Assembly (NCBI RefSeq): GCF_030651595.1
Contig: NZ_JAUSCH010000134.1
Coordinates: 1 to 35,113, forward strand
Direction of reading: 5' to 3'
From: Candidatus Oleimmundimicrobium sp.
Lineage (GTDB): Bacteria > Actinomycetota > Aquicultoria > UBA3085 > Oleimmundimicrobiaceae
Length of the DNA stretch: 35,113 bases
Part shown: positions 26,220 through 30,357 of the stretch, one piece after another
Numbering within the stretch: the stretch's first letter is position 1
Layout of the letters: each line of letters starts with the position of its first letter
The notes under the pieces: generated by a model
Told to the model about the DNA's origin: nothing
Seen by the model: only the letters and a program-made list of their open reading frames with translations
Databases searched by the model: none
Made by a program: the position numbers and the translations under genes

Positions 26220-26294
26220 GATCTGATGTACAGGTTAAGGACCTATCGGACAGTAGGATAGAAAAATTCGGGAATCGGCGGTCGGAGATTTTAA

Positions 26295-26339
26295 AGTTTT
26301 AATATTTACAATTTTCATTTTACAATTTGATAGATTTCT
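26295..26339 (+). repeat. Solitary right end of the tRNA-Ser-associated element
   Basis: The stretch up to ATAGATTTCT matches the right end of element B (28483-28518) and most of the right ends of A and C: TTTACAATTTTCATTTTACA. It abuts the tRNA-Ser 5' fragment at 26340, as if an earlier element lay to the left. Confidence 0.6.
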
Positions 26340-26351
26340 GGAGGGGTGGCT
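26340..26351 (+). repeat. tRNA-Ser 5' fragment, left border of element A
   Basis: GGAGGGGTGGCT, identical to the first 12 nt of tRNA-Ser(TGA) at 26894, and preceded by the same ATTTCT. The two copies frame element A as a direct repeat. Confidence 0.75.
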
Positions 26352-26893
26352 TAACAACATTCTACAAATGTTGAATTGGAAATTGAAGATTGGAAACTTA
26401 AAATTTGAGGTTATAAAAAGCTTTTAAATTTGCATTTATAATGTAGCGAAGCGACAAGAAGATTGAAGATTGGAAAATTTAAAATGGAAGAAAAAGCAAA
26501 TGAACTTTCAGAACGATTGCTAGACTATGGTGTTGAAATTGTAAAACTTACCATGAAATTGAGAAAGACTTCGGCAGGAAGGCAAATCGCGAATCAACTA
26601 TTACGTTGTGGCACATCTGTTGGAGCCAATTATGAAGAGGCATGTGGTGCTCAAAGCAGGGCTGATTTCATACATAAGCTTCAAATTGTTTTGAAAGAAA
26701 TTCGTGAATCACTATATTGGTTAAGGTTGATTAAGAAATCGGCAATTTTAAAGGAGCAAAATTTAATTCAAATCGTTGAGGAAACAAAGCAATTAAGCAA
26801 TATTATCGCAAAGTCGATTATTACAGCTAAGAAAAGGAAATAAATTTACAATTTAATATTTACAATTTTCATTTTACAATTTTGTAAATTTCT
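26352..26893 (+). mobile_element. tRNA-Ser-associated four-helix-bundle element, copy A
   Basis: 542 nt between a tRNA-Ser 5' fragment and the complete tRNA-Ser(TGA). It starts with a hairpin (CAACATT, 5-nt loop, AATGTTG, 26355-26373) and a left arm GAATTGGAAATTGAAGATTG. It carries one gene (26463-26843) and ends with an AT-rich right arm (TTTACAATTTTCATTTTACA) that is an imperfect inverted repeat of the left arm. Compared with copy B it has about 65 extra nt between hairpin and gene. No transposase or recombinase is encoded. Confidence 0.6.
26463..26843 (+). CDS. Four-helix-bundle protein (S23 / 23S rRNA intervening-sequence protein family), copy A
   Basis: A 126-aa basic, all-helical protein of the S23/IVP four-helix-bundle family, known from intervening sequences in bacterial 23S rRNA and distantly related to the Avd accessory protein of diversity-generating retroelements. 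Family marks: ELSERLLDYGVEIVKL, then GRQIANQLLRCGTSVGANYE and the helix ADFIHKLQIVLKEIRESLYW. The first 115 nt are identical to copy B and the protein differs at 6 of 126 positions. The start is either TTG 26463 or ATG 26484; the seven codons between them are the same in both copies. It is the only gene of element A and lies 50 nt before tRNA-Ser(TGA). A role in RNA binding is likely but not established. Confidence 0.85.
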   Translation: MKIGKFKMEEKANELSERLLDYGVEIVKLTMKLRKTSAGRQIANQLLRCGTSVGANYEEACGAQSRADFIHKLQIVLKEIRESLYWLRLIKKSAILKEQNLIQIVEETKQLSNIIAKSIITAKKRK

Positions 26894-26983
26894 GGAGGGG
26901 TGGCTGAGCGGCCGAAAGCGGCGGTCTTGAAAACCGTTAGTGGGGTGACTCACTCGGGGGTTCAAATCCCTCCCCCTCCGCCA
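26894..26983 (+). tRNA. tRNA-Ser(TGA)
   Basis: Acceptor GGAGGGG/CCCCTCC with G73 and encoded CCA; anticodon arm CGGTC-TTGAAAA-CCG with anticodon TGA; long variable arm (TAGTGGGGTGACTCACTCG); T arm GGGG-TTCAAAT-CCC. It directly follows element A. A short inverted repeat (TTTTT...AAAAA, 26984-27000) follows the CCA. Confidence 0.96.
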
Positions 26984-27076
26984 TTTTTACGAAGCAAAAA
27001 TGCCCTGAGCGAACAAAGAGAGTCGAAGGGCAAACCTGTAAGTTAGTAGCGAGAAAAGTAGTTTTTAAAGATTTGC

Positions 27077-27111
27077 AACTATGAGCTGTAGACTATAAAC
27101 TATTAACTGAT
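27077..27111. repeat. 7-nt-period degenerate tract before tRNA-Ser(GCT)
   Basis: Five heptads in exact phase: AACTATG, AGCTGTA, GACTATA, AACTATT, AACTGAT. It ends 4 nt before the tRNA. Confidence 0.65.
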
Positions 27112-27115
27112 TTTT

Positions 27116-27209
27116 GGAGAGGTCGCATAGTTGGTCTAGTGCGGCCGCCTGCTAAGCGGCTTGGGGGTTATAAGCTCCCTCGAGGGTTCGAATCCCTCCC
27201 TCTCCGCCA
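27116..27209 (+). tRNA. tRNA-Ser(GCT)
   Basis: Acceptor GGAGAGG/CCTCTCC, anticodon arm GCCGC-CTGCTAA-GCGGC with anticodon GCT, long variable arm, T arm AGGG-TTCGAAT-CCCT, encoded CCA. It has no four-helix-bundle element before it. Confidence 0.96.
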
Positions 27210-27350
27210 CTCGCTTCGCTTGCTTGTGGCAAGCCACTAAAAGTAAGGAGAAGTGGTCTGTTTGCATCGAGTTTTGTCGAAGGGCAAAGTTATTAGTCGA
27301 TAGTGGGAAGTGATAATTTTTAGAGAATAAAGGAGTTTTAGGTTTAAAAT

Positions 27351-27381
27351 TACTAACTCCCAACTAATAGATTCCTGACTA
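27351..27381. repeat. 7-nt-period degenerate tract before tRNA-Arg
   Basis: TACTAAC, TCCCAAC, TAATAGA, TTCCTGA, CTA: loose heptads ending 3 nt before the tRNA. A shorter related run lies at 27300-27313 (ATAGTGG, GAAGTGA). Confidence 0.45.
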
Positions 27382-27384
27382 AAT

Positions 27385-27461
27385 GCGCCTGTAGCTCAAT
27401 TGGACAGAGTGTTGGACTACGGATCCAAAGGTTGCAGGTTCGACTCCTGCCAGGCGCACCA
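27385..27461 (+). tRNA. tRNA-Arg(ACG)
   Basis: Acceptor GCGCCTG/CAGGCGC, D arm GCTCAATTGGACAGAGT, anticodon arm TTGGA-CTACGGA-TCCAA with anticodon ACG, T arm GCAGG-TTCGACT-CCTGC, encoded CCA. A34 must be converted to inosine by TadA, whose gene starts 133 nt downstream. Confidence 0.96.
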
Positions 27462-27480
27462 ATAAATTTGCAAAGCAAAT

Positions 27481-27508
27481 AGTCGGTAGTTAGTAGTGAG
27501 GAGTCGGG
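27481..27508. repeat. 7-nt-period degenerate tract after tRNA-Arg
   Basis: Four heptads in exact phase: AGTCGGT, AGTTAGT, AGTGAGG, AGTCGGG. It directly follows a hairpin ATTTGC-AAA-GCAAAT (27466-27480) behind the tRNA. Confidence 0.65.
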
Positions 27509-27594
27509 AGCAAAAAAACAGATTTATCGAATGCGGAAGCGTTAGGGAAATTCGCGAGTTTTTTAGTGTTGGCAAAATTTAATTAGGTAAAAAT

Positions 27595-28041
27595 ATGACA
27601 GATGAAGAATATATGAAAATAGCCATAGAGGAAGCGGAAAAAGCAGCTTCCGAAGATGAGGTGCCAGTAGGCGCCATTGTTGTTTTTGGGGAAGATATTA
27701 TTGCGAAAGCGCGCAATAAGTGTGAGAGATGGCAAGACCCTACGGCTCACGCTGAGATTTTAGCCATTCAGCAAGCGGCAAATCATTTAGGAAGCTGGCG
27801 GCTTTCGGGTTGCAAGCTCTTTGTTACCAAGGAACCTTGCCCAATGTGCGCGGGAGCCATTTTTCAGGCGCGCGTGGACAAGCTAATTTATGGAGCACCT
27901 GATATAAAAACCGGCGCCGCAGGCACTCTTTACAACATCACAAATGACGCGCGACTAAACCATCAAACTACTGTGACCTCTGGAGTTTGCGAAGAAGAGT
28001 GCCGCAAGCTCTTGCAAGACTTTTTTAAGAAAAGACGTTAA
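27595..28041 (+). CDS. tadA: tRNA-specific adenosine deaminase TadA
   Basis: A 148-aa zinc-dependent deaminase that makes inosine at the wobble position of tRNA-Arg(ACG). The zinc site HAEI (His near 53, with the proton-shuttle Glu) and PCPMCAGAI (near 82-90) are intact, as are VPVGAIVV near 21 and FFKKR at the C-terminus. Length is normal. AGG lies upstream of ATG 27595. The substrate tRNA gene is the closest upstream gene on the same strand. Ten nt after the stop comes the tRNA-Ser fragment of element B. Confidence 0.95.
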   Translation: MTDEEYMKIAIEEAEKAASEDEVPVGAIVVFGEDIIAKARNKCERWQDPTAHAEILAIQQAANHLGSWRLSGCKLFVTKEPCPMCAGAIFQARVDKLIYGAPDIKTGAAGTLYNITNDARLNHQTTVTSGVCEEECRKLLQDFFKKRR

Positions 28042-28051
28042 AATAACTCTT

Positions 28052-28063
28052 GGAGAGGTCGCT
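28052..28063 (+). repeat. tRNA-Ser 5' fragment, left border of element B
   Basis: GGAGAGGTCGCT; the first 11 nt are identical to the start of tRNA-Ser(CGA) at 28519. It lies 10 nt after the tadA stop codon. Confidence 0.7.
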
Positions 28064-28518
28064 GAACGACATTCTGCGAATGTCGAATTGAAAACTGAAG
28101 GTTGAAGATTGGAAAATTTAAAGTGGAAGAAAAAGCAAATGAACTTTCAGAACGATTGCTAGACTATGGTGTTGAAATTGTAAAACTTACCATGAAATTG
28201 AGAAAGACTTCGGCAGGAAGGCAAATCGCAAATCAGTTGTTGCGTTGCGGTACCTCCGTTGGAGCTAATTATGAAGAGGCAGGTGGCGCTCAAAGTAGGG
28301 CTGATTTTATACATAAGCTTCAAATTGTTTTGAAGGAAATTCGTGAATCACTATATTGGTTAAGGTTGATTCAAAAATCGGCAATTTTAAAGGAGCAAAA
28401 TTTAACTCAAATCATCGAGGAAACAAAGCAACTAAGCAATATTATCGCAAAGTCAATTATTACAGCCAAGAAAAAGAAATAAATTTACAATTTTCATTTT
28501 ACAATTTGATAGATTTCT
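28064..28518 (+). mobile_element. tRNA-Ser-associated four-helix-bundle element, copy B
   Basis: 455 nt between a tRNA-Ser fragment and the complete tRNA-Ser(CGA). Left hairpin CGACATTC-TGC-GAATGTCG (28067-28085) is perfect over 8 bp. A short left arm with GAAGATTGGAAAATTTAAA follows, then the gene (28102-28482), then the right arm TTTACAATTTTCATTTTACA and GATAGATTTCT, identical to the solitary right end at 26339. Confidence 0.6.
28102..28482 (+). CDS. Four-helix-bundle protein (S23/IVP family), copy B
   Basis: A 126-aa paralogue of the protein at 26463-26843. The replacements are Met8Val, one Cys to Gly in the GANYEEA(C/G)GAQ segment, Lys to Gln, Ile to Thr, Val to Ile and Arg to Lys. After an identical first 115 nt, the genes differ at about 17 synonymous sites against about six amino-acid changes, which suggests purifying selection on the protein plus recent homogenisation of the 5' part. 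The second in-frame start is GTG here and ATG in copy A, which slightly favours the shared TTG at 28102. It lies 36 nt before tRNA-Ser(CGA). Confidence 0.85.
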   Translation: MKIGKFKVEEKANELSERLLDYGVEIVKLTMKLRKTSAGRQIANQLLRCGTSVGANYEEAGGAQSRADFIHKLQIVLKEIRESLYWLRLIQKSAILKEQNLTQIIEETKQLSNIIAKSIITAKKKK

Positions 28519-28612
28519 GGAGAGGTCGCATAGTCTGGCCGAGTGCGGCGGTCTCGAAAACCGTTTCCCGCCTTACGGTGGGACGAGGGTTCGAATCCCT
28601 CCCTCTCCGCCA
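28519..28612 (+). tRNA. tRNA-Ser(CGA)
   Basis: Acceptor GGAGAGG/CCTCTCC, anticodon arm CGGTC-TCGAAAA-CCG with anticodon CGA, long variable arm (TTTCCCGCCTTACGGTGGGA), T arm AGGG-TTCGAAT-CCCT, encoded CCA. It directly follows element B. Confidence 0.96.
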
Positions 28613-28636
28613 ATTGGAAAATGTCTTTGTTGGCTC

Positions 28637-28725
28637 GCCCTCTTCGAGGGCTCGCCAGCCGATTTTAAGCGCGAATTGGAATTTTTTATCTTTGCCCTGC
28701 TTTTGCAGGGCTGGCCAAAAGCAGG
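28637..28725 (+). promoter_or_regulatory. Hairpin cluster upstream of the membrane-protein gene, with mutually exclusive stems
   Basis: GCCCTC-TTC-GAGGGC at 28637-28651 is a perfect hairpin. Further on, GCCCTGC-TTTT-GCAGGGC (28694-28711) competes with a 10-bp pairing of CCTGCTTTTG (28696-28705) with CAAAAGCAGG (28716-28725). No T-run follows, so this may be either a regulatory leader or repeat debris. Confidence 0.35.
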
Positions 28726-28763
28726 CTTCCCGGATTTGCATTTTTAATTTTTAAGGAGGAAAT

Positions 28764-29813
28764 ATGAAAAAAATAGCTTTAATAGCAATTTCTATTTCGG
28801 TTTTGATAGTTATAATTGATTTTGTTACTCTTTGTAATCAAAGCCTTGCAGTTGCACCGTTTTGGCGCTGTGCCGGACAATTTATTGGTTTGGGCTGTTT
28901 GATCGTTTTTGGTTTATGTCTTCTTTACTTATTTATTTCTTGGTTCATTAACCCGTTTAGAGTATCGAAAATACGGTCGGAAATAGAAACCGGACAACGC
29001 CTTGCTTCAGTGACCGAAACCATTATCCGCAGATCATTTGGTTTTATCCTCTTGATTGCCACGATCCCTTTTCTCCTAAATATTATCACCTTGCCGACAA
29101 TAATCATCTTTTTAACTTTTGCGATTTATTGTTTGAAAAGCCGGCAATACCGTTTGGGCTGGGAAATTTTCTGGGTTGTGCTGGCTTTATTGATTTATTT
29201 TGTGCCCATAACACCAATTGGCTGGGGAGTTTACGCCAATCTTAAAGTAACGCGCCTGTCTCCCCTGTTAGATCTCGGCATTTATCTTTTTGGCCCCGCG
29301 CCCCTTATTTTTTGTACCCTGGCTTTGTTTTTACTGAGCAGTGATTTGACCAGCCGGTTCAAAAAAATCAGCCTGACTGCCTGGCGCAACATCTTGCCAA
29401 TAATTCTGTTCTTGCTGGCCGCTGCTTATTTTGGGCTTTCACCCTTTATTTCAAAAATAGTGGTTGAACCGGGGTACGGCAGTTTTAATCGGTCTGGCAA
29501 CTATGGCAACATTGAAATGCCGCCTTCGCCTGAATTAAAATTTGACCGACAACAAAATCTTTGGATTTATAATTTTCAGATGAAAAATAATCTGCAGGAC
29601 GAGGCGGAAATAGAAAAAATCTTTGGTGACAAGTCGGAAATTCCTTTGTCTATTGGCGAAAATATTAAAATTGAAGGCGCGGTTTTTGCCAATGGTAAAA
29701 TACTGATTGGGTCGGGGCAAAGAACCGTTATCACTATTCTTTCTCTAAAACCCTTTGGCATCATTACTTTCCAAGGGAAAAATACGAGTGTTGCTTATGA
29801 TTTTTGGAAGTAA
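28764..29813 (+). CDS. Polytopic membrane protein of unknown function
   Basis: A 349-aa protein I do not recognise. About seven hydrophobic helices fill residues 1-235, starting IALIAISISVLIVIIDFVTL near 4-23 and ending ILPIILFLLAAAYFGLSPF near 212-230. The last 110 residues are soluble, with a GENIKIEGAVFANGKILIGS beta-type stretch near 300 and a closing KPFGIITFQGKN. AAGGAGG is well placed before ATG 28764. It stands alone between tRNA-Ser(CGA) and an AT-rich repeat region, and is less AT-rich than its surroundings, which may mean it was acquired. Confidence 0.7.
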   Translation: MKKIALIAISISVLIVIIDFVTLCNQSLAVAPFWRCAGQFIGLGCLIVFGLCLLYLFISWFINPFRVSKIRSEIETGQRLASVTETIIRRSFGFILLIATIPFLLNIITLPTIIIFLTFAIYCLKSRQYRLGWEIFWVVLALLIYFVPITPIGWGVYANLKVTRLSPLLDLGIYLFGPAPLIFCTLALFLLSSDLTSRFKKISLTAWRNILPIILFLLAAAYFGLSPFISKIVVEPGYGSFNRSGNYGNIEMPPSPELKFDRQQNLWIYNFQMKNNLQDEAEIEKIFGDKSEIPLSIGENIKIEGAVFANGKILIGSGQRTVITILSLKPFGIITFQGKNTSVAYDFWK

Positions 29814-29891
29814 TTTATAAAAAATACTAAATCACCTTATTAAAGATTGGATAAAAAACTTAAAATCGTCCAATCTGAAAGGGTCGCTTCT

Positions 29892-29961
29892 CCGCCAGAG
29901 CAGTACAAATTTTGGGCGAAATCAGTTCGAATTTTTTCGAACGCACACCGCCATTCGACTT
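29892..29961. repeat. Dispersed intergenic repeat, copy 1
   Basis: About 57 of 71 positions match the copy at 32258-32328. Shared words include GGGCGAAATC, GTTCG and GCCATTCGACTT. An 8-bp inverted repeat (AGATTGGA/TCCAATCT, 29844-29876) lies just before it. Confidence 0.55.
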
Positions 29962-30110
29962 GCTTCGCTTTAGAGCAGAGTCGCTCACCCTTCGACCTTG
30001 AGCTCAGAGTCGAGAGGTGGCAAGCCACATAAGATGAAGTGCCAATCACGTGGTAAGATATAACTAAGAGTTGACAGATAGGCCTAAAATCTTTTATTTT
30101 TTAGTTTCTT

Positions 30111-30131
30111 AAACTATAAACTAACAACTAT
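30111..30131. repeat. 7-nt-period degenerate tract before element C
   Basis: AAACTAT, AAACTAA, CAACTAT in exact phase, ending 3 nt before the tRNA-Ser fragment at 30135. Confidence 0.6.
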
Positions 30132-30134
30132 TCC

Positions 30135-30146
30135 GGAGAGGTCGCT
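30135..30146 (+). repeat. tRNA-Ser 5' fragment, left border of element C
   Basis: GGAGAGGTCGCT, the same as at element B, with one mismatch in 11 nt to the start of tRNA-Ser(GGA) at 30263. Confidence 0.65.
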
Positions 30147-30262
30147 GAGCGACATTCTGCGAATGTCGAATTGGAAATTGACGTGCCTGCCGGCAGGCAG
30201 GAAGATTGCAGATTGGAAAATTTAATATTTACAATTTTCATTTTACAATTTTGTAAATTTTT
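30147..30262 (+). mobile_element. Gene-less derivative of the tRNA-Ser-associated element, copy C
   Basis: 116 nt with the same left hairpin as B (CGACATTC-TGC-GAATGTCG, 30150-30168), the left arm up to GATTGGAAAATTTA and then directly the right arm ATATTTACAATTTTC. The four-helix-bundle gene is absent exactly between the two arms. A palindrome CCTGCCGGCAGG (30186-30197), typical of short dispersed repeats, sits in the left arm. tRNA-Ser(GGA) follows at once. Confidence 0.6.
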
Positions 30263-30357
30263 GGAGGGGTCGCATAGTTCGGCCTAGTGCGCGCGACTGG
30301 AAATCGCGTTGGCGGTTTATAGCCGTCACGAGGGTTCAAATCCCTCCCCCTCCGCCA
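30263..30357 (+). tRNA. tRNA-Ser(GGA)
   Basis: Acceptor GGAGGGG/CCCCTCC, anticodon arm CGCGA-CTGGAAA-TCGCG with anticodon GGA, long variable arm, T arm AGGG-TTCAAAT-CCCT, encoded CCA. A perfect hairpin TTTTTGC-TAA-GCAAAAA (30358-30374) follows directly. Confidence 0.96.

Follow-up and report, generated by a model that had tools for sequence, protein, structure and literature searches.

S23/IVP-type elements inserted directly before base 1 of tRNA-Ser genes in Candidatus Oleimmundimicrobium

Why should three tRNA-Ser genes of one cluster each have, upstream of them, a second copy of the start of a tRNA-Ser gene? The question is raised by contig NZ_JAUSCH010000134.1 of a Candidatus Oleimmundimicrobium sp. 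(assembly GCF_030651595.1), analysed here as a window of 35,113 nt, to the positions of which the coordinates below refer unless another contig or locus is named, with all features of the cluster on the forward strand. The answer offered is that small elements of the S23/IVP type, relatives of the intervening sequences (IVSs) of rRNA genes, have been inserted there. That they are mobile, arrived by separate insertions before tRNA-Ser base 1, and would be moved by an enzyme acting in trans with the S23 protein recognising their arms, is a reading we regard as probable.

The three occupied loci

ARAGORN finds four tRNA-Ser genes in the cluster: TGA at 26894–26983, GCT at 27116–27209, CGA at 28519–28612 and GGA at 30263–30357. 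The GCT gene is an unoccupied paralogous site with no part of the element. At the other three a first-pass annotation, made from the sequence by itself, had described a shared order, and this is borne out: 5′ to 3′ there is an 11-nt copy of a tRNA start, TNRN, a hairpin, a left arm, in two cases a gene, and a right arm that ends precisely before base 1 of an intact tRNA. In the TGA copy these parts are the left 11-nt copy GGAGGGGTGGC (26340–26350), the hairpin CAACATTC-TAC-AAATGTTG (26355–26373, differing from the hairpins of the other copies by one compensated pair), a left arm of degenerate 7-nt repeats such as AATTGGAAATTGAAGATTGGAAA... (26374–26483), an S23/IVP four-helix-bundle gene of 119 aa with an ATG start (26484–26843) and a right arm, again of 7-nt repeats (26844–26893), the first 11 nt of the tRNA itself being the right-hand copy. 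The CGA copy has GGAGAGGTCGC at 28052–28062, the hairpin CGACATTC-TGC-GAATGTCG at 28067–28085, a left arm of 7-nt repeats at 28086–28122, an S23/IVP gene, also of 119 aa and with a GTG start, at 28123–28482 and a right arm at 28483–28518. Was the gene expected in every copy? The two open reading frames (ORFs) are indeed of the S23 family, and the third copy (30135–30262), at GGA, is gene-less: GGAGAGGTCGC at 30135–30145 has one mismatch to the right-hand copy GGAGGGGTCGC, the hairpin CGACATTC-TGC-GAATGTCG is at 30150–30168, and a left arm at 30169–30222, broken by a GC-rich palindrome, GTGCCTGCCGGCAGGCAGG (30183–30202), is followed by a right arm at 30223–30262. The palindrome recurs intergenically (also at loci L012 and L039) and is another dispersed repeat.

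Right ends finish at 26339, 26893, 28518 and 30262, each immediately 5′ of GGAG. The extra one, a heptad arm at 26284–26339 ending ...TTTACAATTTTCATTTTACAATTTGATAGATTTCT, adjoins the first tRNA fragment, and the same right end stands directly 5′ of intact tRNA-Ser(TGA) in a congener, G001; the suggestion that elements had stacked here was right, the second TGA copy lying behind an older right end. The 15-letter tRNA-start pattern GGAGRGGTSGCWNAR has eight forward matches in the 1.63-Mb genome and none on its reverse strand. Because seven of the eight fall in the cluster (four tRNAs and three fragments), while a reversed-pattern control gives 0–1, the arrangement is not due to chance.

Occupied sites, empty sites and the source of the 11-nt copies

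Are these insertions at all? Comparison of occupied with empty sites, which had been proposed at the outset as a check, could be made, and relatives supply both. With this genome denoted G000, the same-family genomes G001–G004 all carry the same tRNA-Ser genes, G002 being partial, with its contig stopping inside an element. At CGA the site is empty in G001, where the flank runs ...AAAAGACGCTAAAATAGCCCTT directly into GGAGAGGTCGCATAG and is identical to the left flank in the window at 39/45 positions and to the right arm at 9/45; it is occupied in G000 and in G003 (UBA3085, Ca. Oleimmundimicrobium americanum, another genus), whose left flank matches at 44/45; and in the more distant G004 tRNA-Ser(CGA) has no element and an unrelated spacer 5′ of it. 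The GGA site is occupied in G000 only and empty in G001, G003 and G004. The TGA site is empty in G003 and G004, has only the older right end before an intact tRNA in G001, and has a second element behind that right end in G000 and G002. At GCT the element is absent in all four genomes in which the gene was found. Since the family thus shows both occupied and empty orthologous sites, the latter with a single copy of the duplicated sequence (CGA in G001; GGA in G001, G003 and G004; TGA in G003 and G004), the elements are real, polarised insertions, at one identical position of three paralogous tRNA-Ser genes and on different branches. The TGA state of G001 could alternatively be a deletion between two right ends, which leaves the CGA and GGA cases unaffected.

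As a neighbouring deaminase gene places G000 nearer to G003 (dS, synonymous divergence, 0.38) than to G001 (dS 0.69), one CGA gain in the ancestor of G000 and G003 suffices. The S23 gene of the CGA copy and its G003 orthologue have the GTG start in common and 14 shared sites, consistent with a single gain. Loss by excision in G001 was entertained and dropped, the dS values making a single gain enough.

Whose, then, are the 11 nucleotides? The first-pass annotation had the element carry a replacement tRNA 5′ end. In its fuller form the element would bear the 11-nt tRNA-Ser start as an attachment-site-like core, recombine site-specifically into the same core and supply the gene with a new 5′ end. 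In its favour, the insertion position is identical at all sites, and at GGA the left copy is of the CGA type and the right copy is not, as if the core had travelled with the element. However, the tRNA start varies between tRNA-Ser genes at letters 5 and 9, and the left copies have G,G at TGA and A,C at CGA, both as in the target, and A,C at GGA where the target has G,C, a match at 5/6 diagnostic positions over the three window copies. Left-hand GGAGGGGTGGC bears the TGA-specific letters, at seven non-tRNA occurrences of the same left end the preceding sequence is unrelated to tRNA, and the element has no recombinase gene. Because the left copy follows its target and the same left end elsewhere lacks tRNA sequence, target-site duplication is preferred to a carried 5′ end. 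An 11-nt duplication with one later change at GGA is the simplest account; the GGA mismatch leaves the element-borne core a small opening, and we think that core unlikely. Could there be no mobile element whatever, the tRNA-Ser array having grown by tandem duplication that left truncated 5′ ends, with AT-rich intergenic text filling the gaps? Heptad text is common intergenically in these genomes and tRNA-Ser(GCT) sits in the same cluster. However, the same tRNA genes of relatives have uninterrupted flanks, and these empty sites already contradict the proposal; one and the same hairpin comes after every fragment and recurs in distant phyla, and the tRNA paralogues are ancient and far apart in sequence. 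Growth of the array in this way is hardly credible.

The S23 protein, heptad arms and copies beyond the family

Both ORFs match PF05635 / TIGR02436 (E 1e-18 to 4e-26) and exceed the curated cut-offs, at 67.6 and 66.5 bits for a cut-off of 33.8, and 91 and 88 bits for one of 24. The AlphaFold model is a four-helix bundle (predicted local distance difference test, pLDDT, 95) that resembles the structures 2rld (E 3e-6) and 2gsc (template modelling, TM, score about 0.7), with weaker Foldseek matches to Avd (4dwl, 8ub7/8ube; TM about 0.65–0.76). In a solved structure of an S23 relative, four-helix bundles form a pentameric ring (PMC4990558). Between the two window copies the nonsynonymous divergence (dN) is 0.018 and dS 0.305, and between copies generally they are 0.018–0.022 and 0.25–0.31; the resulting dN/dS of about 0.06–0.08 indicates strong purifying selection on the protein. 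Over their first 107 nt (26484–26590 and 28123–28229) the two genes are identical apart from the start codon, and the remainder differs at 24 sites, so that the identical part is likely to be a gene-conversion tract. Relatives with 75–80% identity occur in Planctomycetota, Hydrogenedentes, Sumerlaeota and others, with 74% in Acidobacteriota and with about 50–58% in archaea.

At S23 loci of bacteria and archaea both arms consist of tandemly repeated, degenerate 7-nt units, inverted with respect to each other, in genome-specific 'dialects'. Self-match at lag 7 is 0.51 for 5′ arms and 0.44 for 3′ arms, with a second peak at 14 and values of 0.23–0.36 at the other lags tested. A heptad threshold passed by 1.8% of S23-gene windows and 8.3% of other non-ORF windows is exceeded at 53/71 S23 loci, and among 20 S23 loci of the class 75% and 60% of arms lie above the 95th percentile of controls. 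Ten plasmid S23 loci agree, for instance Planktothrix (AATCGTA)n...(ACGATTT)n, Aulosira (AATTCAA)n...(TTTTGAA)n and Nostoc (ACTTGCG)n. The same period can be made out in the window copies, where it is weak or eroded (score 0.13/0.09), and an RNA fold of the CGA copy pairs its two ends, left arm with right arm. Do the two arms of a locus belong together? Duplex energy relative to shuffles is a poor test, AT-rich arms pairing even when shuffled, and own-locus matching was used instead: arms of the same locus match better than cross-locus pairs (p = 1e-10, 76 loci). Arm sequence also tracks protein distance (Mantel r = 0.53, p = 0.001), and host GC hardly explains this. In the S23-free relative G004 heptad windows amount to 0.1% as against about 3%, a comparison with a single S23-free relative and with loci not matched. 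The pheS–pheT spacer (contig C12 at 14.8 kb, L182) has the heptad dialect CAATTTN here and CAACTAN in relatives (L171, L172), as if arrays had been replaced or converted.

Is the element dedicated to tRNA-Ser? The annotation had it as a tRNA-targeting relative of the rRNA IVSs. The relationship to IVSs and the insertion at tRNA-Ser 5′ ends stand, but of 11 known copies of the left hairpin, in several phyla and of the general form TNRN-CGACATTCTGCGAATGTCG, only four, in this family, abut tRNA-Ser. The same 19-nt hairpin plus AATTG lies 5′ of S23 genes in Sumerlaeota (L047), Dehalococcoidia (L053) and an unassigned bacterium (L049), with no tRNA there. Among 397 genomes of the phylum the hairpin occurs in three, G000, G003 and a class member, G234, where it stands on the left of each of four copies; none of these is at a tRNA, and at least three are short and lack a gene. 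No tRNA 5′ end adjoins the element at related loci outside the family, no rRNA was present in 40 related loci, the left hairpin was not found in viral contigs, and DNA of the element was not found in plasmids. Because other phyla have the same left hairpin and arms at places that are not tRNA genes, tRNA-Ser is a target used in this family and not the element's defining habit. The element has moved between phyla, and gene-less copies of it exist.

Two of the outside copies, at L047 (around 2945, Sumerlaeota) and L148 (around 1500, a class relative), have GTTAGGC directly 5′ of the hairpin and an attC-like GCCTAAC...GTTA behind the right arm. They appear to lie inside integron cassette arrays, and were dropped as candidates for further target duplications. 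In Caldiserica (L075, 3330–3480) an S23 element stops near a tRNA-Leu gene of the opposite strand, about 65 nt from the 3′ end of that gene. On cyanobacterial plasmids S23 genes separate cas2 from cas1 or immediately precede cas1 (L156 and L157, Nostoc and Anabaena; L162), and at L158 and L161 it stands amid helicase / DNA methylase or DUF1156 / Swt1-HEPN operons that resemble defence systems. This genome itself has a different S23 with its own heptad arms between leuD and leuB (contig C35, 17075–18538, L181; relatives L168 and L169), found in three family genomes and absent from G004.

Movement, likeness to known systems and meaning

How might such an element move? An S23 oligomer would recognise the heptad arms, whether in DNA or as a stem in the RNA. 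An enzyme acting in trans would cut the target with an 11-nt stagger, and gene-less copies would likewise be moved in trans. The right junction would coincide with the RNase P cleavage point, so that tRNA processing would stay intact and the element RNA would gain a defined 3′ end; an element would be tolerated in a stable-RNA gene because insertion at that point spares the processing of the tRNA.

As the annotation stated, there is no transposase gene inside the element. Its further thought, of an RNA route, did not prosper in the form of a resident reverse transcriptase: RVT_1 has no match in five family genomes that are 95–100% complete. Target-primed reverse transcription would have a reverse transcriptase in trans copy the element RNA, the S23 mRNA together with its stem, where a tRNA gene had been nicked, S23 being Avd-like. 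The Avd fold that S23 shares (Foldseek 4dwl, 8ub7/8ube) speaks for it, and duplications of variable length are typical of that chemistry and are counted in its favour. However, besides the want of an RVT_1 match, the ends have no poly-A or other RNA signature, and the route seems rather unlikely. A DNA route would have non-autonomous elements moved by resident Y1 transposases (IS200/IS605 or RAYT) that recognise end hairpins. One element end does have a hairpin, and Y1 transposase genes occur in G000–G003 and not in G004, which also has no S23 and none of the copies. Transposition of the IS200/IS605 (Y1) type leaves no target duplication, however, and here 11 nt are duplicated at three sites; moreover the sole Y1 match in G000 adjoins a TnpB-like gene in what looks to be an ordinary IS605-type element, and has no ends in common with the element studied here. 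Mobilisation by resident Y1 enzymes is very unlikely.

Movement of S23/IVP-type elements by an enzyme in trans, with arm recognition by S23, remains the favoured reading, and several points weigh against it. The family genomes have no RVT_1 match. The S23 ORF of Coxiella appears expendable (PMC4990558). The correlation of protein with arm may stem from shared ancestry of the whole unit and not from recognition, and the fold of the CGA copy is no more stable than those of shuffled sequences (z = -0.8). Other S23 subfamilies, at the leuD–leuB site and the L001 site, look vertically inherited within the family and not recently mobile. The two 11-nt copies at GGA differ by their one mismatch. Exact junctions and duplication are seen only at the tRNA-Ser sites; elsewhere the edges are blurred by heptad arms. 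Empty sites were also sought, with chimeric flank queries, at five further loci that bear repeats, where S23 was conserved in the relatives or boundaries were blurred, and no duplication was readable.

What does the element resemble? In the rRNA IVSs of Leptospira and Coxiella, too, one S23 ORF lies between complementary ends; they are sporadic, move horizontally and sit in a stable-RNA gene where processing tolerates them, relying on RNase III. In Coxiella (GACAGAT)n lies 5′ of the S23 ORF (PMC4990558). The difference is that the present elements stand at tRNA-Ser base 1 instead of inside rRNA, with no rRNA at the 40 related loci, and have an 11-nt target duplication, exact empty sites, several copies including gene-less ones, and a distinct left hairpin. 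The Avd of diversity-generating retroelements has the same four-helix fold, but identity to it is only 10–15% and RVT_1 is missing from the five genomes. Eukaryotic tRNA-targeting retroelements, Ty3 and the Dictyostelium DGLT-A and TRE, insert precisely just upstream of tRNA genes, a safe site; the comparison is of how things work only, with no relation of protein or sequence and no reverse transcriptase here. Bacterial tRNA-targeting integrative elements encode a tyrosine integrase and mostly use the 3′ part of the tRNA. In common with them a direct repeat restores an intact tRNA; here, by contrast, it is the 5′ end that is used and there is no integrase.

Known intergenic heptamer repeats, the STRR repeats of cyanobacteria among them, are tandem arrays of degenerate 7-nt units that, like the arms, are often paired in inverted orientation. 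In Planktothrix an S23 gene is flanked by an array of the GGGGATT type (AATCCCC). The difference is that here such arrays form the arms of S23 elements. TAACTGA has been reported from Beggiatoaceae, cyanobacteria and Bacteroidetes (PMC4679880) and GGGNATC from Xanthomonas and Nostoc (PMC4692102). Neither a mobile element nor a protein is named in those reports: 'no mechanism is evident'. Could the two literatures be about one thing? We put forward, with slightly more doubt than confidence, that S23/IVP is the protein part of a bacterial and archaeal mobile family with inverted heptamer arms, each member recognising its own dialect; that its gene-less copies and remnants account for the abundant, so far unexplained heptamer arrays of cyanobacteria, Xanthomonas, Beggiatoaceae and many uncultivated lineages; and that rRNA IVSs and tRNA-Ser are two safe sites.

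What was already known is IVS/S23 elements from rRNA and heptamer repeats from several lineages without a mechanism. In the open-access literature searched, neither S23 elements at tRNA genes nor an 11-nt target duplication nor a general link of S23 to inverted heptamer arms was found to be reported. The origin of IVSs and the role of S23 have been open for decades, IVSs usually being viewed as single static relics. The present elements are a variant of IVS/S23, inserted precisely at tRNA-Ser genes, and a candidate origin of the widespread heptamer repeats. With exact junctions, empty sites, one position reused, gene-less copies and a selected protein, they make target choice, duplication and dependence on S23 testable, and the link between S23 and heptamers offers a single explanation for repeats that the literature had left without a mechanism.

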